A stretch of 39,338 nucleotides of DNA from Candidatus Coprocola pullicola (GTDB lineage Bacteria; Bacillota; Clostridia; Lachnospirales; Anaerotignaceae): assembly GCA_018715395.1 (NCBI GenBank), contig DVLQ01000039.1, positions 1 to 39,338 of the forward strand. The letters run 5' to 3'. The position numbers were made by a program, and so were the translations under genes. Shown here one piece after another: positions 1,935 through 34,871 of the stretch. The notes beneath the pieces were generated by a model. The model worked only from the letters and a program-made list of their open reading frames with translations. It did no database searches and was not told the DNA's origin. How positions within the stretch are numbered: the stretch's first letter is position 1; every line of letters starts with the position of its first letter.

Positions 1935-2319
1935 GTTTGGGATTTTTTAATTTTTAAAATAATAAATAATTAATATTGTAGTAAAGATAATAGAATTTGC
2001 ATTAAAATGAAATATATTGTGAAAAAATGATTAAAATATATAATGATATTGCAAAATATTGCATATAAAATGAGTAATATTTAAAAATACAGCAAAATAT
2101 TATTGATATATAGCAAATAGTATGTTTTAATAAAACCATAATATAAAAACGTGGAAAAGAGAAAAAGGATGGTGATTATTATGAGGGTGAAAATATAAAA
2201 ATAAATGACAGAAAATGGAAAGACAGAATTTGGTAACTAGCAATGTTGCAGTGTATTTGTTATTGTTTTATTTTCAAAACTTTAGTAAATACTGTGCTTG
2301 TAAGAAAGGGGGAACTATT

Positions 2320-3633
2320 ATGAGTAAACCTGTTTCAAACGTTGAACATTATGGTTATACAGAAGCGGAAGAAAAAGTCTTTCATAAGTATGCAATAAGA
2401 ATGCTGATTGGATTTTCATTATTATATATTTTCTTCTATAATGGAAGACAAAATATGAATCTTGCAATTCCTCTTATGATTGAAGATTTTCAAGTTACAA
2501 AAGCAGATATGGGAATTGTAACATCGGCACTTTTTTGGTGTTACGGCTTTGGGCATTTATTCTCAGGACGGTTAGGAGAAATAATTGGTACAAAAAGATT
2601 TATATTTTGGGGTGTTGTACTTTCAGCATTATTGAATTTTATTATTAGCTTTCAAACTTCATTAATCGTAATAGCGATACTTTGGGGAATTAATGGTTTT
2701 GCACAGTCGATGGCTTGGTCTCCTGGAGTTTCTTTGACAAATAAGTGGTGACCAAAGGATAAACGTGGGTATGCAAGCGGTATCATAACAGGAGCTTCGG
2801 GATTAGCACAAGTTGCTACATATTTTTGTGTATTAGCTGCTTATGCGATTTCACCAAATACAAGTTGGAGAGCAGCTTTCAGATGGCCTTTAATCCCTAT
2901 GATAATTATATTGGTTGTTTTTGTCATTTTTGTAAAAAATGAACCAAAAGATGTTGGATTAAAAGATTTTGAAGAGCCGGATACAGAAACAGCAAAATTA
3001 AAGGCACAACGTATGGCAGAATTGAAAGAAAAAGGCGCCATATACCCATTTATTTGTCTTTTAAAAGAACCTAAAATGTGTGTATTTTTATTTATCATTG
3101 CCATTGGGGGCATTGGCAGATATGGCTTGTTAACATGGATACCTACCTATTTTAGTGAAGCATTGCATATGGATATTAAACAAGGTATTTTTTCATCTGT
3201 ATTACTTCCTGTTGGGCAGGCAGTAGCATTTTTTTTAATGCCATATTTAACAGATAAGATTTTTAAAGGAAGAAGAGAACCATTGCTGATTGTTTGCGGC
3301 GTAGTATCAGCGGTTTCTTTGGTATTGTTTCCAAGAATTACATCACAATTTGCAGCAAGCGCAATGTTATTTGTAGTAGGGCTTTTCTCTTCTGTAAATG
3401 GTATTGTTTGGGCATTTGCAGGTGATATTGGCACAAGAGCATTTGCAGGAACTGCAACAGGATTACTGGATTGGGCGGCTTATATGGGAGCGGCAGTGCA
3501 ATCTATATTATTTGGATATGTAAGCGGATATAGTTGGAATGCTGTATTTATTACAATAGCTGTACTTTATATTATGCTTATTTTGCTTGCATTGTCTGCT
3601 AAAAATATGAAAGTACGCGGAACAGCGCAATGA
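2320..3633 (+). pseudogene. MFS transporter, OPA family (GlpT/UhpC-like), interrupted by an in-frame TGA
   Basis: ORFs 2320-2751 and 2899-3633 lie in one continuous frame: ...SPGVSLTNKW*PKDKRGYASGIITGASGLAQ.... A single TGG>TGA change would restore the gene. Confidence 0.85.
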
Positions 3634-4785: not shown

Positions 4786-4849
4786 TTTTTAAGGAATGTA
4801 AAATAGCATAGATTTTTCATATTAGTCTATTATTTTTAACTGGAAAAAA

Positions 4850-4874
4850 CCGAATGATTTCATTCGGTTTTTTT
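4850..4874 (+). terminator. Intrinsic terminator
   Basis: CCGAATG-ATTT-CATTCGG followed by a T-run. Confidence 0.9.
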
Positions 4875-4907: not shown

Positions 4908-4951
4908 TTGACAGAAATGGAAGATTAATATATAATATACGTTATAACGTA
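4908..4951 (+). promoter_or_regulatory. Consensus sigma-A promoter with a 14-bp palindromic operator candidate at the start site
   Basis: TTGACA (4908-4913), 17-bp spacer, TATAAT (4931-4936), then TACGTTATAACGTA (4938-4951), a perfect palindrome. Confidence 0.75.
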
Positions 4952-5038: not shown

Positions 5039-5593
5039 ATGGATGATATAAACAATGTCATTGCGGATAATTTGAAAAGAATGAGAAAAGAAAACAGATG
5101 GAGCTTAGATACAGTAGCAGAAATGACCGGCGTTAGTAAAAGTATGCTGGGACAAATTGAACGAAAAGAATCCAGTCCTACTGTAGCAACGCTTTGGAAA
5201 ATTGCTACAGGATTACATATTTCTTTTACAGCATTGTTGGAACAATCCGAAAAGGAAGCAGAATTGATAAAAAAAGAAATGATAAAACCTTTGTTAAGCG
5301 ATGAGGGGCATTTTAGGCTGTATCCTTTTTTTCCTTATACTACCAAAAGAAATTTTGAAATGTTTTCTATTGAATTAGATGAAAATTCTAGATCTGTATC
5401 AGAGGCTCATGAAGCAGGTACAGAAGAACTGATACTTGTGTTTGAAGGTTGTTTAATATTAGAAATAGAAGGAACTTCTTACACTGTAGAAAAGGGAAAT
5501 GCCATTCGTTTTTTGGCAGATTATCCTCACATTTATAAAAATGGTGCAAATGGTATGACACGCATCTGTATGTTAATTTATTACAAAAAATAA
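5039..5593 (+). CDS. XRE-family regulator with C-terminal cupin domain
   Basis: HTH_3 (LKRMRKENRWSLDTVAEMTGVSKSMLGQIERKESSPTVATLWKIA) plus cupin-like C-terminus. Confidence 0.9.
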   Translation: MDDINNVIADNLKRMRKENRWSLDTVAEMTGVSKSMLGQIERKESSPTVATLWKIATGLHISFTALLEQSEKEAELIKKEMIKPLLSDEGHFRLYPFFPYTTKRNFEMFSIELDENSRSVSEAHEAGTEELILVFEGCLILEIEGTSYTVEKGNAIRFLADYPHIYKNGANGMTRICMLIYYKK

Positions 5594-5615: not shown

Positions 5616-7994
5616 ATGAAAATGAGTGCTACAGAAAGAATAGAAAGAATTCGTCTAAACTATGTTAATAGTAAGCCGGCTATTTCTTATCAAAGAGCTA
5701 AGATTTGGACACAGTCTCACAAAAAAACAGAAGGTAAACCGGTAGCCATTCGTCGTGCGCAAGCGTTTTATGATACTTGCAATGAACTTTGTGTTAATAT
5801 TTTTGCAGATGAATTAGTTGTAGGCTGTACCGGAGAATTTAGAAAATGCGGTATTTTGACGCCGGAATTTTCATGGACATGGGTAGATAGAGAAATGGAT
5901 CATTTTGCAACCCGTGCCCAAGACCCTTATGAAATGACAGATGAACAAAGAGAATTTGTAAGAAAAGAAATATTTCCTTATTGGAAGGATAAATCTTTAG
6001 AAGAGGCATTTTTAGCACAAATTTCAGAAGAAACCAAAACAGTAGCAGTAGATACAGGCTTTGTGGATACAGATTCTAAATGGCGTCAGGCAGTTGGAGA
6101 GGTTACGGCTGATTATGAGGATGTATTATTTAAAAAAGGTTTTGGCGGCATTAAAAAAGAGGCAGAACAATATTTGTCACAATTAGACGAAACTTCTTTG
6201 GAAGGTATGGAAAAAATAGAATTTTATCGTTCTATCATATTGGTTTGTGATGGTATCATTCGTTTGGCAAACCGTTATGCACAAAAGGCAAAAGAAATGG
6301 CAGAAATAGAAAAGGATGCCCAAAGAAAAGAAGAATTACTTCAAATTTCTCAAATATGCAGTGTTGTACCTGAAAATCCTCCAAAATCATTTAGAGAAGC
6401 AATACAATTTATGTGGTTTACACAATTAGGAGGCATATTGTCTGAAAATCCTTTAGCTTGGAACCCGGGACGTTTTGACCAATATATGTATCCTTATTAT
6501 AAACAAGACAAAGAAGCAGGACTGATTACACAACAACAAGCACAAGAATTGATTGAATGCTTATGGTTAAAGCTTTCTGAATGGGTTTGGACGATTTCTG
6601 CAAATACAGCAGATTTTTTTGCAGGGTATAATCAATTTCAAAATTTGACGGTAGGTGGAAGAACAAGAGATGGTAAAGATGCCACAAATGAAATTTCTTA
6701 TATGTGTTTAAAAGCAACGGAGGATACCCTTGCGCACCAGCCGGGATTGAGCGTAAGGATTCATCCGGATTGTCCGGAAGAATTTTTGTCCGCTGTGACG
6801 CATTTAGTAAGTAAAGGAACTGGTTTTCCGGCTATTCATAGTGATAATGCAGGCTATCAAATGCTTATTAATGCAGGTTATGAGCCGGAAGACGCCAGAG
6901 ATTGGTCAAACTGTGGTTGTGTGGTGCCTCATTTTAGAAAAACAGGAGAATGGACTTCTGCGGCAAATTTAAATTTTGCAGCAGCATTGGAATTTGCATT
7001 AAATGAAGGAAAAAGCCGTTTAACCGGTAAAAAGATTGCATTGGAAGAAAAGAATCCAAAAACTTTTTCTAGCTATGAAGAAGTAGAAAAGGCATTTTTC
7101 AAACAGTTTTCTTATTTAATCAAACAATCTGTTATTAGTTTGATTACAGCGCAAAGACTGCATGTGGAAATGGTTCCAAGACCTTTTATGTCTGCTTGTA
7201 TTGAAGAGTGTATGAAAAAAGGAAAGGATTTGACAAAAGGCGGTGCAAAATATAATATAGGTCCTGTTATCACAGGAATCGGCATTGCTGTGGTTGCAAA
7301 TTCTTTGGCTGTGATAAAGAAACTGGTATTTGAAGAAAAAATAGCTACCATATCTGAAATTATTGACGCCATTGATGCAAATTGGGAAGGATATGATATA
7401 TTAAGAGCAAAAGCACAATCTGTACCCAAATATGGAAATGATGATGATTATGTAGACGATATTGCAAGAAAAATCAGCAATTTCTTTTATGAAGAGGTAC
7501 ATCAATATAAAGATATTCATGGTTCTCATTTCCTTTCTGCATTTATGGGAATTTCCAACTATTTGCCTACAGGAAAAGTATTGGGTGCGACGCCGGATGG
7601 CAGAAAGGCAAAAGAACCGATTTCTGAAGGAGTCTCTCCCTATGTGGGAACAGATACTTCTACGCCATTGGCAGCAATGCGTTCTGCTGCAAAATTGAAT
7701 CAAGATATTCATAGTGGAGGTACATTGCTTAATCTTCGTTTGAATCAGGACTTAGTGGCTACAAAGAGAGGTCAGTCCAATTTAGGCGCTATGATACAGT
7801 CTTATTTTGCATTGGGAGCTTTCCATGTGCAGTTTAATACAGTATCAACAGAAGTGTTGAAAAAAGCCCAAGAACATCCTGAAGATTATAAAGATTTGCT
7901 GGTGAGAGTAGCCGGATATAGCACACAGTTTGTCAATTTATCAAAATCTATGCAAGATTCTATTATTGCAAGAAATGCTCATGAGAGCTTTTAA
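5616..7994 (+). CDS. Glycyl radical enzyme, PFL2/dehydratase-like family, unassigned reaction
   Basis: C-terminal glycyl radical motif LLVRVAGYSTQFVNLSKSMQDSIIARNAHESF; active-site loop DWSNCGCVVPHFRKTGEW; PFL2-like N-terminus. Followed by its activase. Confidence 0.93.
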   Translation: MKMSATERIERIRLNYVNSKPAISYQRAKIWTQSHKKTEGKPVAIRRAQAFYDTCNELCVNIFADELVVGCTGEFRKCGILTPEFSWTWVDREMDHFATRAQDPYEMTDEQREFVRKEIFPYWKDKSLEEAFLAQISEETKTVAVDTGFVDTDSKWRQAVGEVTADYEDVLFKKGFGGIKKEAEQYLSQLDETSLEGMEKIEFYRSIILVCDGIIRLANRYAQKAKEMAEIEKDAQRKEELLQISQICSVVPENPPKSFREAIQFMWFTQLGGILSENPLAWNPGRFDQYMYPYYKQDKEAGLITQQQAQELIECLWLKLSEWVWTISANTADFFAGYNQFQNLTVGGRTRDGKDATNEISYMCLKATEDTLAHQPGLSVRIHPDCPEEFLSAVTHLVSKGTGFPAIHSDNAGYQMLINAGYEPEDARDWSNCGCVVPHFRKTGEWTSAANLNFAAALEFALNEGKSRLTGKKIALEEKNPKTFSSYEEVEKAFFKQFSYLIKQSVISLITAQRLHVEMVPRPFMSACIEECMKKGKDLTKGGAKYNIGPVITGIGIAVVANSLAVIKKLVFEEKIATISEIIDAIDANWEGYDILRAKAQSVPKYGNDDDYVDDIARKISNFFYEEVHQYKDIHGSHFLSAFMGISNYLPTGKVLGATPDGRKAKEPISEGVSPYVGTDTSTPLAAMRSAAKLNQDIHSGGTLLNLRLNQDLVATKRGQSNLGAMIQSYFALGAFHVQFNTVSTEVLKKAQEHPEDYKDLLVRVAGYSTQFVNLSKSMQDSIIARNAHESF

Positions 7995-8006
7995 AAAAAG
8001 AATGTC

Positions 8007-8037
8007 AAAAACATCTGATGTAACGTCAGATGTTTTT
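8007..8037 (+). terminator. Terminator/attenuator between GRE and activase genes
   Basis: AAAACATCTGA...TCAGATGTTTTT hairpin with T-run. ORF start at 8030 lies inside it, so the later ATG is preferred. Confidence 0.7.
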
Positions 8038-8059
8038 GTTCTTAAAGGGAAGTGAAAAA

Positions 8060-8956
8060 ATGAAAGGATATATTATGCAGATACAGCCCTTTTCTGTCAA
8101 TGACGGAGAAGGAATTCGCACAACGATATTTATGGCAGGATGTCCATTGCGATGCAAATGGTGTTCTAATCCTGAAGGAATGACACAAAAGCCAAAAACA
8201 GCATTTTATGAAAAAGTTTGCATAGGATGTGGCATTTGTACAACAGTTTGTCATTTACATGGAGGGATTAATCTAAACGAAGCAAAGCAAAGAAAGATTT
8301 GCGATGGCTGTGGCAGTTGTGCCGATGTTTGTCCTAGACATGCAAAAAAACGTATGATAATAGAAAAAGATGTTTCACAAATTGTAGAAGAAGTGAAAAA
8401 GCATAGTTTATTTTATAGACAATCAGGAGGAGGCATTACATTTTCCGGAGGAGAAGCTACAATGCAGAAAGAATTTTTGGAAGAACTTTCTTTGCAGTTG
8501 TATGATTTGGGATTTCATTTGACAATAGAAACTTGTGGCTATTTTTGTTTTGACGATGTAAAAAGTATACTAAACCGTATGGATATGATTTTTATGGATT
8601 TGAAACACATGGACAACGAAAAGCATCTCTTTTTTACTGGAGTAGACAACAAAAAAATACTAGAAAATATAAAAAGATTAGAGGAAATAAATGCAGAAAT
8701 TATCATACGTATTCCTGTGATAAAAGGAGTGAATGCAGATAAAGAAAATATTGAAAAAAGCGGCGTCTTTGTACATAAGTATTTGCCAAAAGCAAAAATG
8801 GAATTATTGCCCTATCATAAGTTTGGTTTTGGAAAATATGAAGCACTGGGTTTGAAGGTACCGGAAGAGTCATTTCAAACTCCTACAGAACAAGAAATGA
8901 AAGAGCTAAAAAAAGTGATACAAAATATAGGTATTACATTGGTAAATTTTCAGTAA
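8060..8956 (+). CDS. Glycyl radical enzyme activating protein (radical SAM, two ferredoxin-type [4Fe-4S] motifs)
   Basis: NDGEGIRTTIFMAGCPLRCKWCSNPE (CxxxCxxC); CIGCGICTTVC and CDGCGSCADVC clusters; GGGITFSGGEA. Confidence 0.95.
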   Translation: MKGYIMQIQPFSVNDGEGIRTTIFMAGCPLRCKWCSNPEGMTQKPKTAFYEKVCIGCGICTTVCHLHGGINLNEAKQRKICDGCGSCADVCPRHAKKRMIIEKDVSQIVEEVKKHSLFYRQSGGGITFSGGEATMQKEFLEELSLQLYDLGFHLTIETCGYFCFDDVKSILNRMDMIFMDLKHMDNEKHLFFTGVDNKKILENIKRLEEINAEIIIRIPVIKGVNADKENIEKSGVFVHKYLPKAKMELLPYHKFGFGKYEALGLKVPEESFQTPTEQEMKELKKVIQNIGITLVNFQ

Positions 8957-8980: not shown

Positions 8981-9380
8981 GCTTAGTGGGTCGAAAAAGC
9001 CTATTTGGGCTTTTTCGAGTTTCATTAATGAATAAAACATTACTTCTTTGTATAAGCTTTGCCTTACCAAAAGTCTTGCAATACAGGTTTTTATTCGGCA
9101 GAAATAAATTCTGTTTACGGATTGCATTGGGGAAAATTTTTGTTCTCCAAACTATTGCATGAATAAAAAGAATTTTTTTGACAATTTGGACTTGAAATCG
9201 AAGCGATGAAATTCATCACTAATGCCCAAAAGTGGTGAAACATGAGGTTTTTAGCAAATCCATCCAAAATAAAAAAGCCGAAATGCTAACAAAAGAAAAT
9301 TTCTCGAAATTTGCAAATACTTTAATACAAAGACATACGAAAGGGGTTATGACAAGGATAACTCGTAGTGATATGAGTTT
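8981..9380. repeat. Copy 1 (R1) of an intergenic structured repeat
   Basis: Similar to 16277-16480 and 16485-16688 (gcttagt..., tacaagctttgcctt-like core, gaaataaattc.gttt.cggatt.catt). Lies between convergent genes. Right limit uncertain. Confidence 0.65.
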
Positions 9381-11682: not shown

Positions 11683-13032
11683 ATGAAATATATTGCTGTA
11701 TTTGATGTTGGTACAACAGCTGTAAAAGGAGCCTTGATAAGAGAACAAGCAGAGGTATTGATAGAAAAAGAAATAGAAATTATAACTTATGTTGAAAAAA
11801 ATAATAAAACACAAAATCCAAAACAATGGTATGATGCTTTTTGTGAAACTTCAAAGATGTTTTGGAAAAGTTATATGCCACAACAAGTAGCAGGTATCGT
11901 TTTAAGTGGACAAATGCAAGATTTGATATTAATAAACAATGAAAATCAACCCGTTTGCAACGCTATTTTATATTCTGACAGCAGAGCTGTGGAAGAAGAC
12001 AGAGGAAATTCTCAGACGATTGAAAAAACAAGAAATATATGCTGTGACAGGAAATGATATGAATGGTTCTTTACCGATTGCAAAATTATTGTGGCAAAAA
12101 AATATCAAAAAGAACGATATAAACATATTAAAAAAATACTTTTTAGCAGTAAAGATTATATTGTATTATAACTAACAAATAGATTTATATCAGATACAAT
12201 CACTTGTTCAACAGTAGGCTGTATGAATATTTATAAAAAACAATGGGAAAAAGATTTTTTAAAAACATTGGATATTTCTTGGGAATTATTTCCAAAAATT
12301 GCATATGCTGATGAAATTGCCGCAAATGTGACAAAAAAAGCAGAGTCCGAAACAGGATATATACAAGGAACAAAAGTATATGTAGGTATGGGAGATGCCG
12401 GAGCCTCTACATTGGCAAGCGGCATTTCTCAGAAGGGAGAGTATAATATACAACTTGGTACTTCTAGTTGGGTAGCAGGCATATCCAACACAATGATAAA
12501 AAAAGAAGGTATATTTCATTTAGCAGGTATTACAAAAGATACCTATATCAATGTTGTGCCTTTTTTGAATGGAGGTAACGTATATCAATGGGCTACAGAT
12601 ATTTTTGCGGAAGGAAACTATGGTATGATGGAAAAATTATTGCAAAAAGCAGAAAAAAGTGACGTATTATGTTTACCGTATTTTGCAGGCGAACGTTTTC
12701 CGATACTGGATGAAAAGGCAAGCGGTATGTTTTTTGGTATCAAAGAAAAAACAACAAAGGCAGATTTGGCAAAATCTGTTTTAGAAGGCTGTGCCTTTTT
12801 TATTCGACAAGGTATAGAAACAATGGGAGAGCCTATTCAAAAAATTTCAATGATAGGCGGAGGCGCAAGAAGCAAAATCTGGTGCCAAATCATGGCTGAT
12901 ATATTACAGAAAACAATGATTGTATATGAAGATAGCACATTTTTAGCAATAAAAGCATTAGCTATGTTTGTAATGGAAAACAAGAAAAAAATCATATACA
13001 ATATGTTGTGTATGAACCAAAAAAAGAATTAA
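11683..13032 (+). pseudogene. FGGY-family carbohydrate kinase, multiple frameshifts
   Basis: MKYIAVFDVGTTAVKGALI (ATPase phosphate loop) and ...GIVLSGQMQDLILINNENQPVCNAILYSDSRA; continues in other frames; AYADEIAANVTKKAESETGYIQGTKVYVGMGDAGASTLASG; KISMIGGGARSKIWCQIMADI. Confidence 0.85.
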
Positions 13033-22638: not shown

Positions 22639-23502
22639 ATGGAAAAGTCTTTGCTTGAAACATTACAACAACGATATGATGAAGGCAAGTATCAATTTAT
22701 AATAGATAAATTATTAGAAATAGAACCGGAAAAATGGGGATATGATTTAACTTGTCTTTTTGCTCGAGCGCTCAATGAATTAGGAGAGTATGAAGATGCT
22801 GTGGGATATCTTTTAAAGGTGGCAAAAGAAGGCAGAAAAGATTATATGTGGTATGTGAGAATGGGATATGCTTACTTTTTGCAAAAGCAATATCAAAAAT
22901 CCAATCAGATGTTTCAAAAAGCATTGAAATTACAGCCCAATAACCAAGAAATATTTCTTTTTGCAACATTGGCTTCCAGTGCGGAAAAAGAAGAAAATAT
23001 CCATGAGCATATAAAAGAAATGATAACACAACTGAAAAAAGTGGGTGAAAAAGCAGACTATATGACGCAAGAAGTAGAAGAAATTATACAAAAATTACCT
23101 GCTGAGGATTGTATATTAAATATTCATACACTTTTGAAAACATTTTCAGATGGAAATATTACATTTCATATTAAAAGAAATTTATTGAAAGACTGGAAAG
23201 GCTCTAGAAATTGCTTTGCTACTAATCGTATTATTATAGATGGTAAGAAAATCGGATTTATGTATCGGGATATACCAAAAGAAGGACAGGATGATAGTGG
23301 ATGGCGATTTACAGCAGGAGATGAAAGCAGCAGTTATATGGCGGATGAAAGAAATTTTGGCTTGTATGACTTGAATTTACTTTGCAATTACGACCCTGAT
23401 ATTATTTCTTTTTTAAACGCACCCTATGGCAAGGCGTATTATAGAGATGAACAAGGTATATTTCGTGAGGCAGAACCCCCAAAATTTAAAAAAAACCAAT
23501 AG
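22639..23502 (+). CDS. TPR-repeat protein with C-terminal DUF2185-like domain
   Basis: TPR-like YVRMGYAYFLQKQYQKSNQMFQKALKLQPNNQEIF; C-term CFATNRIIIDGKKIGFMYRDIPKEGQDDSGWRFTAGDESSSYMADERNFGLYDLNLLCNYDPDI. Confidence 0.75.
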   Translation: MEKSLLETLQQRYDEGKYQFIIDKLLEIEPEKWGYDLTCLFARALNELGEYEDAVGYLLKVAKEGRKDYMWYVRMGYAYFLQKQYQKSNQMFQKALKLQPNNQEIFLFATLASSAEKEENIHEHIKEMITQLKKVGEKADYMTQEVEEIIQKLPAEDCILNIHTLLKTFSDGNITFHIKRNLLKDWKGSRNCFATNRIIIDGKKIGFMYRDIPKEGQDDSGWRFTAGDESSSYMADERNFGLYDLNLLCNYDPDIISFLNAPYGKAYYRDEQGIFREAEPPKFKKNQ

Positions 23503-26858: not shown

Positions 26859-27272
26859 ATGAATCAGTTTGAATTACTTGTTTGTTGTGTTGAAAATTAT
26901 AGCCACATTAAAAATGTAGCAAGCAATAAAGTTGCACATTCCTTTGGACAAAAGGGGATTTTTGAATTGCTTTTGGAAGGGTACGAGGCTTATTGCAATA
27001 TGGACGAAGGCTTTTTTATTGGTATGATAGATGGATATATGGAAAATACAACAGATGCACAACAGTCGGAATATAATAAACACAAACAAAGACAAGCAGT
27101 GCTTCCAAAGGTATTGAAACAAATTGCAAAAGAAAAAAATATGACAAAAATAGAAACCATAAAATCTTTTTATGCTTCTAAAACAGGAGAGGCTTTTGCC
27201 AATGACAGCACAGAGTATTATAATAAAACCCCTGAAGAATTGGTAGAACTCTACAATCAGGAAACAATATGA
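26859..27272 (+). CDS. Uncharacterised protein, possibly DUF3791-like N-terminus; overlaps cbiD by 4 bp
   Basis: ORF with RBS aaggag; ATGA overlap with cbiD. Family assignment tentative. Confidence 0.6.
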   Translation: MNQFELLVCCVENYSHIKNVASNKVAHSFGQKGIFELLLEGYEAYCNMDEGFFIGMIDGYMENTTDAQQSEYNKHKQRQAVLPKVLKQIAKEKNMTKIETIKSFYASKTGEAFANDSTEYYNKTPEELVELYNQETI

Positions 27273-28378
27273 ATCAAAAAAATTTAAAATGGGGATATAC
27301 AACAGGCAGTTGTGCCGCAGCAGCTGCAAAGGGAGCTGTAACATTACTTTTATTAGGTCAAAAACTGCAAAAAACTTCTCTTTTGACACCAAAAGGGATT
27401 ACATTACAGTTAGATTTTATCAACTGTAGTTGGAAAGGTGAAAAAACAATTTGTGGTGTAAAAAAAGACAGCGGCGATGACCCTGATGTGACAAATGGTA
27501 TTGTGATATATGCTACAGCAGAAAAAATTGAAAAAGGCATTATCATAGAAGGGGGAGAAGGCATTGGGCGTGTGACCAAAAAGGGATTGCAACAGCCTGT
27601 TGGCGCAGCAGCCATCAACAAAGTTCCTCGAGAGATGATAAAAAAATGTATTGAAGAAATTTCTGCATTGGCACAATATCATGGAGGCATTGCTGTAACC
27701 ATATGGACGCCGCAAGGAAAAGAAATTGCAAAAAAAACATATAATTCTAGGCTGGGTATTTTGGGAGGTATTTCTATACTAGGGACAAGCGGTATTGTAG
27801 AGCCTATGAGTGAAAGGGCACTGTTAGACAGCATTATAGTAGAACTAGGTATGAAAGCGGCTAATAGCAATCAAAATTTGATATTGACGCCGGGAAATTA
27901 TGGTCGCGCTTTTTTAAAAAAAGAGTATGGTATTGATGTGGAAAAAGCTGTTAAAATCAGTAATTTTGTAGGAGAAACACTGGATGCTGCAAAGCAATTG
28001 TCATTACATGCAATATTACTTGTAGGACATATTGGAAAACTGGTAAAAATAGCAGGAGGCATTATGCAGACTCATTCAAAATATGCTGATTGCAGAATGG
28101 AAATTATAGGAGTTCATGGTGCGATGGCCGGAGCCGATACCAAAACCATACAATCTATTATGCAGTGCATTACAACAGAAGAAGCGTTACTTTTATTAAA
28201 AGAAAAGGGATTACTGGAAAAAACAATGGATTCTATTTTAAAAAAAATGCTGGAGCATATGCAGTATAGACTGGGAGAAAAAACGAAAATAGAAGTGATT
28301 GTATTTTCTGAAAAATTGGGAGTTTTAGCTCAAACAAAGAATGTGGAAGCATTTTTAAAAAATTGGCGACAGCAATAA
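27269..28378 (+). CDS. cbiD: Cobalt-precorrin-5B C1-methyltransferase CbiD
   Basis: WGYTTGSCAAAAAKGA, DSGDDPDVTNG, GEGIGRVTKKGLQQPVGAAAINKVPREMI. Confidence 0.96.
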   Translation: MNQKNLKWGYTTGSCAAAAAKGAVTLLLLGQKLQKTSLLTPKGITLQLDFINCSWKGEKTICGVKKDSGDDPDVTNGIVIYATAEKIEKGIIIEGGEGIGRVTKKGLQQPVGAAAINKVPREMIKKCIEEISALAQYHGGIAVTIWTPQGKEIAKKTYNSRLGILGGISILGTSGIVEPMSERALLDSIIVELGMKAANSNQNLILTPGNYGRAFLKKEYGIDVEKAVKISNFVGETLDAAKQLSLHAILLVGHIGKLVKIAGGIMQTHSKYADCRMEIIGVHGAMAGADTKTIQSIMQCITTEEALLLLKEKGLLEKTMDSILKKMLEHMQYRLGEKTKIEVIVFSEKLGVLAQTKNVEAFLKNWRQQ

Positions 28379-28390
28379 AGGGGTGATGAT

Positions 28391-29200
28391 ATGGTACATT
28401 TTGTGGGAGCCGGCAGCGGCGCGGTAGATTTGATTACAGTACGAGGACAAAAACTGTTGAAAAATGCAGATGTGATAATCTATGCAGGCTCGCTGGTTAA
28501 TGCAGAATTGTTAAAAGAAGCAAAAGAAAATTGCATGATTTATAACAGTGCAAAAATGACACTAGAAGAAGTGATAAAAGTAATGCAAGAAAATAAAGAA
28601 AAAGAAATCGTTCGCCTTCATACGGGAGATACTAGTTTATATGGAGCCATTAGAGAACAGATGGACGCTTTAAAACAATTGCAAATACCGTATGATATTT
28701 GTCCCGGAGTCAGCTCTTTTTGTGGTGCGGCGGCAGCTTTGCAAATGGAATATACATTGCCAAATGTATCTCAAACAGTGATTATTACAAGAATGCCGGG
28801 AAAAACACCCGTACCGGAAAGAGAAGATATTTCTAAATTAGCCAAGCATCAGGCAACAATGGTTATTTTTTTAAGTGCAGGATTGTTGGAAGGGCTAGAA
28901 AAAAAATTGCAGCTTGGAGGTTGTCATAAAGATATGCCTGCCGCAATTGTGTATAAAGCGACTTGGGAAGACGAAAAAATAATACGCTGTAGTGTTTCTA
29001 CATTAGCAAAGTCTGCAAAAGAAAATCATATTACAAAAACAGCATTGGTGATAGTAGGAAATGTATTAGGAGATAACTATGAACGTTCTTTATTATATCA
29101 CCCTGATTTTTCTACAGAATTTAGAAAGGCAAAAAAAAATGAAATTATATGTCATAGGGTTTACAAAAAAAGGCACCACATTGGCAAAGAAAATTTGTGA
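28391..29200 (+). CDS. cbiF: Cobalt-precorrin-4 C11-methyltransferase CbiF
   Basis: MVHFVGAGSGAVDLITVRGQKLLKNADVIIYAGSLVN, RLHTGDTSLYGAIREQM, PGVSSFCGAAAALQMEYTLP. Confidence 0.96.
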   Translation: MVHFVGAGSGAVDLITVRGQKLLKNADVIIYAGSLVNAELLKEAKENCMIYNSAKMTLEEVIKVMQENKEKEIVRLHTGDTSLYGAIREQMDALKQLQIPYDICPGVSSFCGAAAALQMEYTLPNVSQTVIITRMPGKTPVPEREDISKLAKHQATMVIFLSAGLLEGLEKKLQLGGCHKDMPAAIVYKATWEDEKIIRCSVSTLAKSAKENHITKTALVIVGNVLGDNYERSLLYHPDFSTEFRKAKKNEIICHRVYKKRHHIGKENL

Positions 29201-30164
29201 AAAAATGGATGATGCAAATTGTTTTTCTATGAAATGCCAAGAAGAAGGAATTACAATGGTTTCTTCCTTAAAGAATTGGACAGAAAAAGCATTTCAAAAA
29301 GCAGACGGCATTGTATTTGTAGGCGCTTGTGGCATTGCTGTAAGAGCAATTGCTCCGTTTTTGAAAGAAAAATTTTGCGACCCTGCCGTTGTGGTAGTAG
29401 ATGAAAAGGGCAGTTTTGTGATTTCTTTATTATCCGGTCATGTGGGAAAAGCAAATATGCTTACTAATAAGATAGCACAAAAAATTAATGCTACAGCAGT
29501 GATTACCACTGCTACAGATATCAATAACATTTTTGCAGTAGATGTGTGGATAAAGCAAAAAGGGTTTTTATATTTGAAAAAAGAAGAAGCAAAGAAAATG
29601 ATGAAATGGATTTCCGCTGCATTATTGGATAAAAAAATAGTAGGCTTTGATACCATATTTGAATATGATGCATTGCCAAAGGGTATACAAGCAAAAAAAG
29701 AAGGTGAGATTGGAATTTCTCTTTCCATTTATCATGAAAAAAAGAAATTTGAAAAAACACTTTTTTTGATTGCGCCTATTGTACATATTGGTATAGGTTG
29801 TAAAAAAAATATAAGTTCTCAAGCGGTGGAAGAAGCTGTTTTTTGGATATTAAAAAAAGAAAATATCCCTATAGAAGCAGTAGAAGCGCTTTCCACCATT
29901 GATTTGAAAAAAAATGAAAAAGGGATTTTGTATTTTTGTGAAAAATATCAAAAACCGCTTCATACTTTTTCAGCAGAAGAATTGTCAAAAGCAGAAGGGA
30001 ATTTTACCGCGTCTGATTTTGTAAAACAAACAACAGGAGTAGACAATGTTTGTGAAAGAGCTGCTATATGTTCTTGCGATTATGGAAAATTACTTCTTCC
30101 CAAAAAAGTATACAATGGCGTTACAATTGCACTGGCAATGAAAAAAATGACGATTTCATTTTAG
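29139..30164 (+). CDS. cbiG: Cobalt-precorrin 5A hydrolase CbiG
   Basis: DGIVFVGACGIAVRAIAPFLKEKFCDPAVVVVDEKGSFVISLLSGHVGKAN, HIGIGCKKNISSQAVEEAV. Confidence 0.94.
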   Translation: MKLYVIGFTKKGTTLAKKICEKMDDANCFSMKCQEEGITMVSSLKNWTEKAFQKADGIVFVGACGIAVRAIAPFLKEKFCDPAVVVVDEKGSFVISLLSGHVGKANMLTNKIAQKINATAVITTATDINNIFAVDVWIKQKGFLYLKKEEAKKMMKWISAALLDKKIVGFDTIFEYDALPKGIQAKKEGEIGISLSIYHEKKKFEKTLFLIAPIVHIGIGCKKNISSQAVEEAVFWILKKENIPIEAVEALSTIDLKKNEKGILYFCEKYQKPLHTFSAEELSKAEGNFTASDFVKQTTGVDNVCERAAICSCDYGKLLLPKKVYNGVTIALAMKKMTISF

Positions 30165-30174
30165 GAGGAATTTT

Positions 30175-30906
30175 ATGAAACAAATATTATATGTTGTAGG
30201 AATTGGCGCTGAAGGCGGCGGCACTATGACAAAACAAGCACAGCAAACGCTTTCTCGTTGTCAGCTGATTGTAGGGTATCATGTTTATGTTGCATTAATA
30301 CAGAAAGACTTTCCGGATAAAATGTATTTTACAAGTCCTATGACACAAGAAAAGGAAAGAGTAGCCTATGCAATAGAACAATGTCAAAGAGGGATTGCAA
30401 CAGCAATCATATCCAGTGGCGACAGCGGTGTATATGGTATGGCTTCTCTTGTTTATGAACTGGCTGAAAATACAGATATTAGCGTGGAAGTCATTTCGGG
30501 TGTGACAGCTTGTTTAAGTGGAGGAGCTGTTTTGGGTGCTCCGCTTTCTCATGATTTTGCTGTTATCAGCTTAAGCGATTTACTAACCCCTTGGGAAGTG
30601 ATTGAAAAAAGACTGCGTTTGGCGGCAGAGGGAGATTTTGTAATTTGTATTTACAATCCATCCAGTAAAAAAAGAAAAGAATATTTGAAAAAGGCTTGTG
30701 ATATCGTACTAAAATACCAATCCCCCAAAACAGTATGCGGTATTGTAAAAAATATTGGCAGACAAGGACAGATAAGCAAAATATTAACATTGGAACAACT
30801 AAAAGACACTCAGGCAGATATGTTTACAACTGTTTTTATAGGAAATCGTCAAACAAAAATACGAAAAGGAAAAATGGTAACGCCACGAGGTTATGTTTAT
30901 GAATAA
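30175..30906 (+). CDS. cbiH: Precorrin-3B C17-methyltransferase CbiH
   Basis: VVGIGAEGGGTMTKQAQQTLSRCQLIVGYHVY, SSGDSGVYGMASLVYEL, YNPSSKKRKEYLKKACDIVLKYQ. Confidence 0.95.
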   Translation: MKQILYVVGIGAEGGGTMTKQAQQTLSRCQLIVGYHVYVALIQKDFPDKMYFTSPMTQEKERVAYAIEQCQRGIATAIISSGDSGVYGMASLVYELAENTDISVEVISGVTACLSGGAVLGAPLSHDFAVISLSDLLTPWEVIEKRLRLAAEGDFVICIYNPSSKKRKEYLKKACDIVLKYQSPKTVCGIVKNIGRQGQISKILTLEQLKDTQADMFTTVFIGNRQTKIRKGKMVTPRGYVYE

Positions 30907-32869
30907 AAAGATATTGCTTTTTGGAGGAACAACAGAAGGAAGAATGTTTGCACAATATTTATCTGGCACAAATGCGGATACAGATGTTGCAGTGGCTACA
31001 GAATATGGTCAGCAGCTTTTGCGGGAAAAAGAAAATTTGCATATCCTTTCTGGAAGAAAAGATATGTGTCAAATTCGGCAAATGATAAAAGAGCAAAGAT
31101 ATGTTTGTGTCATTGATGCGACGCACCCTCATGCAGTGGAGGTAACAAAAAATATCCAACAAGCTTGTCAGCAAACAAATACAAAATATTATAGACTTTT
31201 AAGAGAAAGTTGTGATGCTGAGGAAGGTGTTTGGGTAGATTCCATAGAAGAAGCAGTTTGTTTTTTACAAAAAACAACAGGAAATATATTTGTGACAACA
31301 GGAAGTAAAGAGTTAAACAAATTTAGAGTGTTGACTGATTTTTCTCAAAGAGTTTATGCTCGTATACTGCCTGTAGCAGAGGCAATACTTCAATGTCAAC
31401 AATATGGTATGACAGGAAAACACATCATATGTATGCAGGGACCATTTTCTACAGAAATGAATGTTGCACAGCTAAAACAAATACAAGCCAAATATATTGT
31501 TACAAAAGAATCGGGAAAAACAGGAGGGTTTCAACAAAAAATAGAAGCGGCACAACAAACCGGTGCATTGGCTGTTATCATAGGAAGAAAAAATATAGAA
31601 GAAGGTTTTTCTTTTTCTAAATTAACAGTAGAATTGCAAAAACAGTACTCTATTGTGGCAAAAAGACAAGTGACATTATTGGGAATTGGCGCAGGAGTGC
31701 ATACATTGACACAAGAAGGCAGACAAGCAGTACTGCAGGCCGACTGCATTATTGGCGCAAAGCGTATGATAGAGGCATTGTCCCATTTTGAAAAAGAGAG
31801 TTTTGTTAGCTACGAAAGTGAAAAAATTGCAGAATTTATTATAAAACAAAAACAGTATAAAAATATAGTTGTGGCTTTTTCTGGAGATATTGGATATTAC
31901 AGCGGTGCAAAAAAATTGTATGATTTGTTAAAGGATTTTGAAGTAAATACAATAAGCGGCGTATCTTCTGTTTCTTATTTTATGGCAAAGCTGCATACTT
32001 CTTGGGAGGATGCAAAGCTGTTGAGTCTGCATGGTAAGAAAGAGTCTGTTTTAGGACATATTTTACAAAATAAGAAAACAATTTTATTATTAGGAAAAAA
32101 AGACGATGCAGCAAATATTTGCTCTATGCTGTGTAAAAAAGGATTGAAAAATATAAGAGTCGTTTTGGGAGAAAATCTTTCTTATGATACAGAAAAAATA
32201 ACAAACGCTACAGCAGAAATATTACAAAACATACAAACGGCTCCTTTAGCAATATTATATATCGAAAATGAGCAATATTTACAAAAAAAACAACATTTTG
32301 GTATGTGTGATAATGCTTTTGTAAGAGGAAATGTTCCTATGACAAAAAGAGAAGTTCGTACAGTATTGCTTAGTTATATGATGCTAAAACAAGACGACAT
32401 TATTTGGGATGTGGGAGCAGGAACAGGTTCTGTTTCCGTAGAGATGGCGCTGCAATGCCCTTTTGGCACAGTATATGCCATTGAAAAAAAACAAAAAGCG
32501 CTTTTGCTTTTAGAAGAAAACAAACAAAAATGGCAGTGCTGGAATATGCAAATCATAGAAGGAAATGCACCGGAAATATTAAAACAACTGCCTGCCGCTG
32601 ATAAAGTGTTTATAGGAGGCAGCAGTGGCAGAGCAAAAGAAGTGATGAAAATCGCTTTAGAAAAAAATCCGCAAGCATACATTATAGCAACAGCTGTTAC
32701 AATAGAAACCATAAGAGATTTAGAGGAAAGCTTTTCTGAACTGGATATGCATTGGCAATGTACACAAATTGCTGTTACAAGAAGTGAAAATATAGGAAAG
32801 TATCACATGATGAAAGGACAAAATCCTGTATGGATATATTGGGGAAGCTCAACTATGAAAGGACAATGA
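30899..32869 (+). CDS. Trifunctional CbiJ-CbiE-CbiT fusion (precorrin-6A reductase + precorrin-6B/8 methyltransferase domains)
   Basis: CbiJ: KILLFGGTTEGRMFAQYL, VIDATHPHAVEVTKNI; CbiE: VTLLGIGAGVHTLTQEGRQAVLQADCIIGAKRM; CbiT: IIWDVGAGTGSVSVEMALQCPFGTVYAIEK. Confidence 0.92.
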   Translation: MNKKILLFGGTTEGRMFAQYLSGTNADTDVAVATEYGQQLLREKENLHILSGRKDMCQIRQMIKEQRYVCVIDATHPHAVEVTKNIQQACQQTNTKYYRLLRESCDAEEGVWVDSIEEAVCFLQKTTGNIFVTTGSKELNKFRVLTDFSQRVYARILPVAEAILQCQQYGMTGKHIICMQGPFSTEMNVAQLKQIQAKYIVTKESGKTGGFQQKIEAAQQTGALAVIIGRKNIEEGFSFSKLTVELQKQYSIVAKRQVTLLGIGAGVHTLTQEGRQAVLQADCIIGAKRMIEALSHFEKESFVSYESEKIAEFIIKQKQYKNIVVAFSGDIGYYSGAKKLYDLLKDFEVNTISGVSSVSYFMAKLHTSWEDAKLLSLHGKKESVLGHILQNKKTILLLGKKDDAANICSMLCKKGLKNIRVVLGENLSYDTEKITNATAEILQNIQTAPLAILYIENEQYLQKKQHFGMCDNAFVRGNVPMTKREVRTVLLSYMMLKQDDIIWDVGAGTGSVSVEMALQCPFGTVYAIEKKQKALLLLEENKQKWQCWNMQIIEGNAPEILKQLPAADKVFIGGSSGRAKEVMKIALEKNPQAYIIATAVTIETIRDLEESFSELDMHWQCTQIAVTRSENIGKYHMMKGQNPVWIYWGSSTMKGQ

Positions 32870-33219
32870 TGAAAAGAAAAATAATAGGAAGATTTGCAAA
32901 AAGCATGACAAAGTAAAATGTTTTGAAGACAACTTATCCAACTAAACATCAAGAGGTTATTTTTAACCATATCCATGTCCACAAAGGACATAAAAATACT
33001 TTAGAAAAAAGAGAAAATCATTTGTCTAACAGAAACGTCACTGTATTATAAATATGGACTGAAGCTAAAATGCTGATTAGAGAAAAGAAGCAGTACAATC
33101 TGAAACGCTTAAATAAAGCATCGCTGTTGCAATCTAATAAAGCAATTATTTCCCATTAGACTGAAGATATAAACAAGTGGGATTAAGTATAGGTATGGGA
33201 AAAATGAGTGAAATACAAT

Positions 33220-33475
33220 GGTTCTGTTAACTGAACATGAAAATAAAAGTACAGAAATTTGCGACAAATATATTTTTGATGTCTGTATTTATCTTTTCTA
33301 TAACCATAAAGGAAATGAGAAAAGCAATAGGGACAAAAAATAGAAAAATCTTTAAAAGTAATTTTTATATTTATGCATAGTAACAGCTCCTTTCGAGGAG
33401 AAACACTGTTTTAGTTCATTTTGTTGTACTTTCAATAAGGAGCTGTTGTCTATACCATTTTAACGTAACAGAATC
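33220..33475 (+). mobile_element. MITE copy C (256 bp) inside the cobalamin operon
   Basis: Ends GGTTCTGTTA / TAACAGAATC; 7/8 target duplication AATACAAT / AATACATT; matches copy B along its length. Confidence 0.85.
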
Positions 33476-33500
33476 AATACATTATATAGGAGAAAGTAGT

Positions 33501-34871
33501 ATGAAAATACCAAGAATACTTTTTGCCGCTCCTGCCAGCGGTATGGGCAAAACAACCATAACCTGTGGTTTTTTGGCTGTATTAAAAAAAAGAAATGTAG
33601 ATACCATTTCGTTTAAATGTGGTCCTGATTACATTGATACGCTTTTTCACAGCCATGTTTTGGGAGTGCCTTCTTATAATATAGATACCTTTTTAACAGG
33701 TGAAAAAAATGCTAAATTTCTTTTTTATAAAAATGCTGTAGGCAAAAAAATGGCTGTCATAGAAGGCGTAATGGGCTATTATGACGGATTGGGCAGCACA
33801 ACTTTAAAAGCCAGCAGTTATGATGTGGCAAATGTGACAAAGACACCTGTGATTATGGTCATACGTCCAAAGGGAATGAGCCTTTCTGTTGCAGCATTAC
33901 TAAAAGGTTTTTTGCAGTATCAACAAAAAAGCTATATAAAAGGGGTAATACTCAACGGTGTTTCACAAATGTTTTATCAAACGCTAAAAGATGTGATAGA
34001 AAAAGAATTGCCTATCAAAGTATATGGCTATTTGCCTCAAAAGCAAGAATTTGCATTGCAAAGCCGTCATCTTGGATTGGTGACGCCTGATGATACACAA
34101 CAGCTACAAAAAAAATTATATTACTTAGCAGAAGAAATGGAAAAAAATATGGATATAGAGGGGATTATGTCATTAGCAGAATCAGCAGAAGAATTGCCTG
34201 ACATGGTATTGCCAAAAAATGAAGTAGAAAAAAAATGTACTATTGCAGTAGCAAAGGATAGAGCATTTTGTTTTTATTATAAAGATAATTTACAGTATTT
34301 GGAGGAAAATGGATGTCAACTGGTCTATTTCAGTCCTTTAAAAGACAAAAATTTACCAAAAGAGGCAGACGGTATTTTTTTAGGCGGAGGATATCCGGAG
34401 CTATATGCCAAAGAGCTTTCTCAAAACAATACAATGATTGCAAGTATCAAAAACGCCATTGCGCAAGGCATGCCGGTATGGGCAGAATGCGGAGGGTTTT
34501 TATACCTTCATGAAACATTGCAGGATGCACAAGAAAAAAGCTATGCCATGGTTGGAGCTATAAAAGCCCACGCTTTTGGTGAAAAGCAATTAAAGCATTT
34601 TGGTTATATTACATTACAAGCCCAAAAAGACACATTTCTTTGCAAAAAAGGAGAAAGCATTCCAGCCCATGAATTTCATTATTGGCAAAGTACCAATCCA
34701 GGAAATGCTTTTTTAGCGGAAAAATATTCTAAAAAAAGAAGTTGGCAGTGTATTCACGACCAAAGAAATATTTTTGCAGGATTTGCTCACATTCATTTTT
34801 ATGGAAATACGATATTTGCAGATAACTGGATAAAGCAATGTATACAATGGAGGAGAGAAAAAAAAGTATGA
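33501..34871 (+). CDS. cbiA: Cobyrinate a,c-diamide synthase CbiA
   Basis: RILFAAPASGMGKTTITCGFLAVLKKR, FKCGPDYIDTLFHS, GGGYPELYAKELSQN, WAECGGFLYL. Confidence 0.95.
   Translation: MKIPRILFAAPASGMGKTTITCGFLAVLKKRNVDTISFKCGPDYIDTLFHSHVLGVPSYNIDTFLTGEKNAKFLFYKNAVGKKMAVIEGVMGYYDGLGSTTLKASSYDVANVTKTPVIMVIRPKGMSLSVAALLKGFLQYQQKSYIKGVILNGVSQMFYQTLKDVIEKELPIKVYGYLPQKQEFALQSRHLGLVTPDDTQQLQKKLYYLAEEMEKNMDIEGIMSLAESAEELPDMVLPKNEVEKKCTIAVAKDRAFCFYYKDNLQYLEENGCQLVYFSPLKDKNLPKEADGIFLGGGYPELYAKELSQNNTMIASIKNAIAQGMPVWAECGGFLYLHETLQDAQEKSYAMVGAIKAHAFGEKQLKHFGYITLQAQKDTFLCKKGESIPAHEFHYWQSTNPGNAFLAEKYSKKRSWQCIHDQRNIFAGFAHIHFYGNTIFADNWIKQCIQWRREKKV

Follow-up and report, generated by a model that had tools for sequence, protein, structure and literature searches.

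A glycyl radical enzyme (GRE) encoded by Candidatus Coprocola pullicola falls, judged by its sequence, into a separate, well-defined family, here called the GCVVP clade, and its substrate is probably a small amine or amino acid, converted by an undescribed route. The CXE motif, a Glu two residues past the catalytic Cys that is conserved among GRE eliminases (PMC7077986), is absent from the enzyme, and Val takes its place in all intact members of the clade. The gene lies in a stretch of 39,338 nucleotides, referred to as the window.

Operon organization and regulation

The operon and its encoded motifs comprise the following features (window positions):

4843-4874, forward strand: intrinsic-terminator-like hairpin, forming the boundary between the Fe-ADH gene upstream and the GRE operon
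4908-4936, forward strand: sigma70-type promoter, 12/12 consensus match, 17-nt spacer
4938-4951, no strand assigned: perfect palindrome TACGTTATAACGTA, proposed XRE-cupin operator, directly 3' of the promoter
5039-5593, forward strand: XRE-cupin transcriptional regulator, 184 aa
5616-7994, forward strand: GRE, 792 aa (ORF call, Pfam and NCBIfam profiles, structure search)
6066-6101, forward strand: invariant pocket segment D151-E162 (D.DSKWR...GE)
6909-6941, forward strand: Cys loop NCGCVVPHFRK, N432-K442, with thiyl Cys435, Val436 and Val437, the last where CXE has Glu
7539-7559, forward strand: clade-specific active-site loop AFMGISN (642-648), replacing G-L/I-x-P-V/T
7905-7931, forward strand: glycyl radical loop RVAGYSTQF with Gly767 (sequence motif)
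8006-8038, no strand assigned: hairpin between GRE and activase, -20.6 kcal/mol, z -5.9
8060-8956 (ORF 8030-8956), forward strand: radical SAM GRE activase, probable start ATG 8060, after the ribosome-binding-like site AAAGGGAAG

The defining elements of the GRE superfamily are all present: a C-terminal RVxGY Gly loop, a thiyl Cys loop, the barrel fold and a radical SAM activase, in which the radical SAM domain is accompanied by two ferredoxin-type clusters. The GRE scores 744 bits for the PFL-like and 109 bits for the Gly_radical Pfam domain, and its AlphaFold model (mean pLDDT 93.6) has CutC as its best Foldseek match (TM 0.98). The canonical glycyl loop RVAGYSTQF and the thiyl-Cys candidate NCGCVVPHF noted in the first-pass annotation are exact (Gly767, Cys435), and the Val that it placed at Cys+2 is indeed found there, as Val437. 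This is the sole full GRE in the 3.0 Mb genome; microcompartment (BMC) shell-protein genes, already noted as missing from the window, are missing from the whole genome as well.

The core module of the clade consists of an XRE-cupin (or GntR-FCD) regulator, the GRE and the activase. Of 66 clade loci, 40 have an XRE-cupin homolog and a further 7 a GntR-FCD homolog; counts over these loci, including those for the operator below, are not independent, as some of the 66 are near-duplicates. Among 28 control GRE loci, XRE-cupin homologs are found in none and a GntR-like protein in one (26% identity). With at most two mismatches, TACGTTATAACGTA occurs within 250 bp upstream of the XRE or GRE gene in 28/66 clade loci, and 32 sites are located in the 30 kb directly upstream of clade XRE/GRE genes versus 6 in 1,203 kb elsewhere. 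A regulon search of the Candidatus Coprocola pullicola genome gave no site with fewer than two mismatches beyond the one in the window. This layout is that of a locally regulated single-operon function in which the regulator is predicted to bind the palindrome. The hairpin at 8006-8038 may act as an attenuator, reducing activase output.

The upstream MFS and Fe-ADH genes were considered as operon partners and rejected, as the terminator lies between, they fall outside the promoter/operator unit, and they are not conserved in relatives. The MFS transporter gene (organophosphate/galactonate-type, 2215-3633) contains a single in-frame TGA at 2749 in an otherwise open frame, and thus has either a nonsense mutation or a sequence error at that base. 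Another sugar gene of the window is also disrupted: that of an FGGY carbohydrate kinase (11683-13032) is split into two ORFs, with a transaldolase/FSA gene following. Further along are genes for a TPR protein with an Imm33 immunity domain (22639-23502) and for cobalamin biosynthesis (27269-34871; CbiD, CbiJ/TP-methylase and a CobB/CobQ-like amidotransferase).

Phylogeny and distribution of the GCVVP clade

A scan of species genomes identified about 50 clade loci at 59-90% identity to the GRE, beneath which there is a gap, the next relatives being at most 41% identical. In a maximum-likelihood tree the clade is supported at 100/100, and it forms one branch (100/99) with the N-methyl-cis-4-hydroxyproline dehydratases (8id1, 8iof) and with CutC, the latter as a single row on one long branch; HypD and the other sampled CXE enzymes fall apart from it. 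CutC and these dehydratases all have N-methylated amines as substrates. The loop CGCVVPH is not due to chance, since all intact clade members read carry it while Cys+2 is Glu in 27/27 outgroup GREs.

Carriers are found in the Bacillota, Synergistota and Pseudomonadota, with a further one in a MAG labelled Deltaproteobacteria that the tree tool assigned to Myxococcota, and include anaerobes of gut and sediment, cryptic strains of the C. difficile lineage, Sporomusa and others. Their distribution is patchy: 18/245 genomes in the order, all from one family, and 4/391 other genomes in the rest of the class. The window GRE shares 88-90% identity with the copies found in a neighbouring genus, Anaerotignum lactatifermentans among them, versus 74% with copies of its own genus, which suggests that it arrived by horizontal transfer.

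Several copies in the clade are damaged. Those of L047 and L051 are frameshifted and that of L017 has an in-frame stop. The copy in L131 (about 9272-9281; carrier genome G382) is decayed, with a frameshift and without residues 432-456, which include the Cys loop; the latter loss led us to reject selenocysteine at the broken loop.

Active site of the GRE

Residue equivalences are taken from alignment, and distances are inferred. Compared to the CutC pocket residues (PMC12451663; PMC7077986), F335, F341 and T447 of the GRE correspond to F389, F395 and T502, and W325 and Q513 are common to both, whereas CutC Y208 and Y506 are replaced. K155 and R157 are invariant across the clade and absent from CutC, and AFMGI replaces GLYPV. 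The Asp216-Glu491 acid pair of CutC is incomplete, with E162 at the position of Asp216 and V437 in place of Glu491. The HypD residues H160, D278 and E436 are not kept either (E, A and V in the GRE), and the carboxylate-binding S334 of HypD is Phe335. Of the residues of B12-independent glycerol/propanediol dehydratase (GDH), H164, H281, S282 and E435 are all replaced: E162 aligns with H164, and L280/A281 stand in place of H281/S282.

The distance between His160 and the CXE Glu in HypD is 2.5 A (PMC7077986), and E162 could thus place a carboxylate near the site left empty in the GRE. E162 is shared with the 8id1 family, which has both Glu162 and the CXE Glu and, from these residues, looks like an evolutionary intermediate.

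Relation to characterized enzymes

The GRE reaches none of the NCBIfam equivalog cut-offs for CutC, HypD, HpsG, HpfG, HPAD, IAD and PFL. It scores 723.5 bits with the choline TMA-lyase CutC profile TIGR04394 (cut-off 1050), 613 bits with the HypD profile NF043068 (cut-off 1100) and 160 bits with the PFL profile (cut-off 994), and IAD and HPAD scores are far under their cut-offs. TIGR01774 (PFL2/glycerol dehydratase-type GREs) is barely passed, at 680.5 versus 678.2 bits. No solved structure falls inside the clade, and our literature search found no relevant description of the GCVVP motif or of the clade's organisms. The earlier statement that the enzyme has no assigned substrate thus holds, and no characterized clade with Val as the standard residue at Cys+2 was encountered.

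Among characterized solved structures, 8id1 (N-methyl-cis-4-hydroxy-L-proline dehydratase) has the highest identity to the GRE (39-40%) and shares K155, E162, N283, H408, W430 and C433 with it. In contrast to the GRE, 8id1 and the D-isomer enzyme 8iof retain CXE (GCVET) and have Ser or Ala at the position of F335; they also form a clade of their own (100/100), outside of which the GRE lies. CutC (PDB 5a0u, 5fau) is the best match in fold and shares the pocket positions above, with an acidic residue at D216, but differs at E491, Y208 and Y506 and in that the GRE genome is without microcompartment genes. HypD is similar in fold, in the pairing of GRE and activase and in its connection to amino-acid metabolism, but is 34-37% identical and differs at the four residues named. 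B12-independent glycerol/propanediol dehydratase shares the fold (TM 0.96-0.97) and none of its four mapped residues.

The first-pass annotation took the Val to argue against diol/lyase chemistries. This holds insofar as Glu is standard in such enzymes (PMC7077986; PMC6181972). As an exclusion it is too strong, since the nearest relatives are themselves lyases or dehydratases (CutC and the N-methyl-4-hydroxyproline dehydratases) and since Glu162 sits where HypD has His160, a residue in contact there with the very Glu that is missing here. That the GRE is not a lyase is therefore not established.

Neighbouring genes in other clade loci

Most clade loci have no conserved partner beyond the core module. 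A CPG2-like M20 hydrolase is encoded adjacent to the GRE or close by in 7/66 clade loci versus 0/28 control GRE loci, the carriers being Sporomusaceae, Anaeromonas, Dethiosulfatibacter, an uncultured clostridial MAG (L019) and one other Anaerotignaceae genome. Individual loci among these additionally encode YjiG/YjiH, DUF5058, D-serine ammonia-lyase (DsdA), N-acylamino-acid racemase (NSAR-like) homologs or a family III CoA-transferase. Genes for branched-chain amino acid (BCAA), methionine or lysine/threonine biosynthesis adjoin the GRE in some lineages. Taken together, the M20 hydrolases, YjiG/H, racemases, D-serine lyase and biosynthesis neighbours suggest an amino-acid-like substrate. These metabolic partners vary by lineage and are absent from the window, and may be incidental.

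In Mogibacterium (L022 261-9969, L028, L050), ilvD, leuA, leuC, leuD, leuB, ilvA and ilvE are found directly upstream of the GRE, with a gene for a DUF815 AAA protein lying between.

Proposed function and alternatives

Our preferred reading, held tentatively and at somewhat less than even confidence, is that of an inducible GRE whose substrate is an ammonium-bearing amino acid, possibly in N-methylated form, and in which E162 takes over the position or function of the lost Cys-loop Glu; in its wider form, this reading also allows for chemistry other than elimination. The operon would be a free-standing, inducible one-enzyme catabolic module, in which the XRE-cupin regulator binds the palindrome beside the promoter and the operon is expressed in response to a small ligand. 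By homology and from the conserved parts, the activase would install a radical on Gly767, which would pass to Cys435 and lead to H abstraction from the substrate. The pocket would be a CutC-like aromatic, ammonium-binding one without Cys-loop Glu, with Glu162 on the opposite strand facing the substrate. Most likely, the latter would be a small compound combining ammonium and carboxylate groups (an amino acid, N-methylated amino acid or betaine) and without the hydroxyl served by the CXE Glu; Glu162 could be an ammonium anchor, or a base for C-N or C-X elimination. The grouping with CutC and the N-methyl-cis-4-hydroxyproline dehydratases, the identity to 8id1, the pocket residues, the fold match to CutC, the conserved regulator and operator and the M20 and associated neighbours speak for this reading, whereas the variable partners, the biosynthesis genes adjoining the GRE in some lineages, the replaced Y208/Y506, the K155/R157 absent from CutC, the Phe335 at S334 and the single long CutC branch in the tree would count against it.

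It is possible, if rather doubtful, that the family is isofunctional and catalyses a reaction new to GREs, enabled by a shift of the catalytic carboxylate out of the Cys loop and onto the opposite strand, at E162; examples could be radical C-N cleavage, C-C cleavage or isomerization of a hydroxyl-free amino acid or betaine. Chemistry other than elimination, by which a C-C bond is made or broken as in PFL and X-succinate synthases (XSS) or an amino acid or 2-oxoacid is isomerized, appears unlikely. Published CXE GREs are eliminases and decarboxylases (PMC7077986; PMC6181972), no CXE Glu is reported as catalytic in PFL and XSS, which share the GRE fold, and the clade-specific loop change is large. 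PFL employs a Cys pair instead (PMC12338860), and C433 and C435 flank G434 here; yet these are not adjacent, and C433 is common to the CXE-bearing 8id1. Sequence, tree and fold moreover place the GRE with CutC-type enzymes and far from PFL and XSS, to which similarity is low, and XSS-type accessory genes are absent from the operon. A dehydratase or lyase acting on a hydroxylated substrate, in which the base has switched strands and Glu162 substitutes for the CXE Glu, seems quite improbable: the apparent 8id1 intermediate and the contact of HypD His160 with Glu436 (PMC7077986) agree with it, but the acid/base partners of the diol and hydroxyproline enzymes (GDH His281/Ser282, HypD Asp278) are Leu and Ala in the GRE.

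We consider a role in branched-chain or aspartate-family amino acid biosynthesis, such as 2-oxoacid supply, to be highly improbable. The Mogibacterium ilvD-leuACDB-ilvA-ilvE genes are closely spaced on the same strand as the GRE, other Mogibacterium have lysC/thrC, Sedimentibacter copies have ilvB/ilvC nearby and L017 has met genes; however, the adjoining pathway differs in each lineage, the very patchy presence of the GRE argues against biosynthesis, and Candidatus Coprocola pullicola has a normal IlvD/IlvC pair elsewhere. Replacement of dihydroxy-acid dehydratase by the GRE was rejected, as IlvD adjoins IlvC in this genome and the carriers G011 and G027 lack both. Least probable to us is an aryl- or alkylacetate decarboxylase; the pocket is lined with aromatic residues and has lost the polar diol ligands, but known GRE decarboxylases retain the Cys-loop Glu, with Glu1 kept in HPAD and IAD (PMC6181972), and the scores with both profiles are low.

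The CXE glutamate is regarded as the hallmark of GRE eliminases. Its absence from an entire conserved family implies either that another group acts as catalytic base or that the reaction is a new one. The three genes form a compact target for expression and screening, and the operator and regulator could serve to report the substrate.
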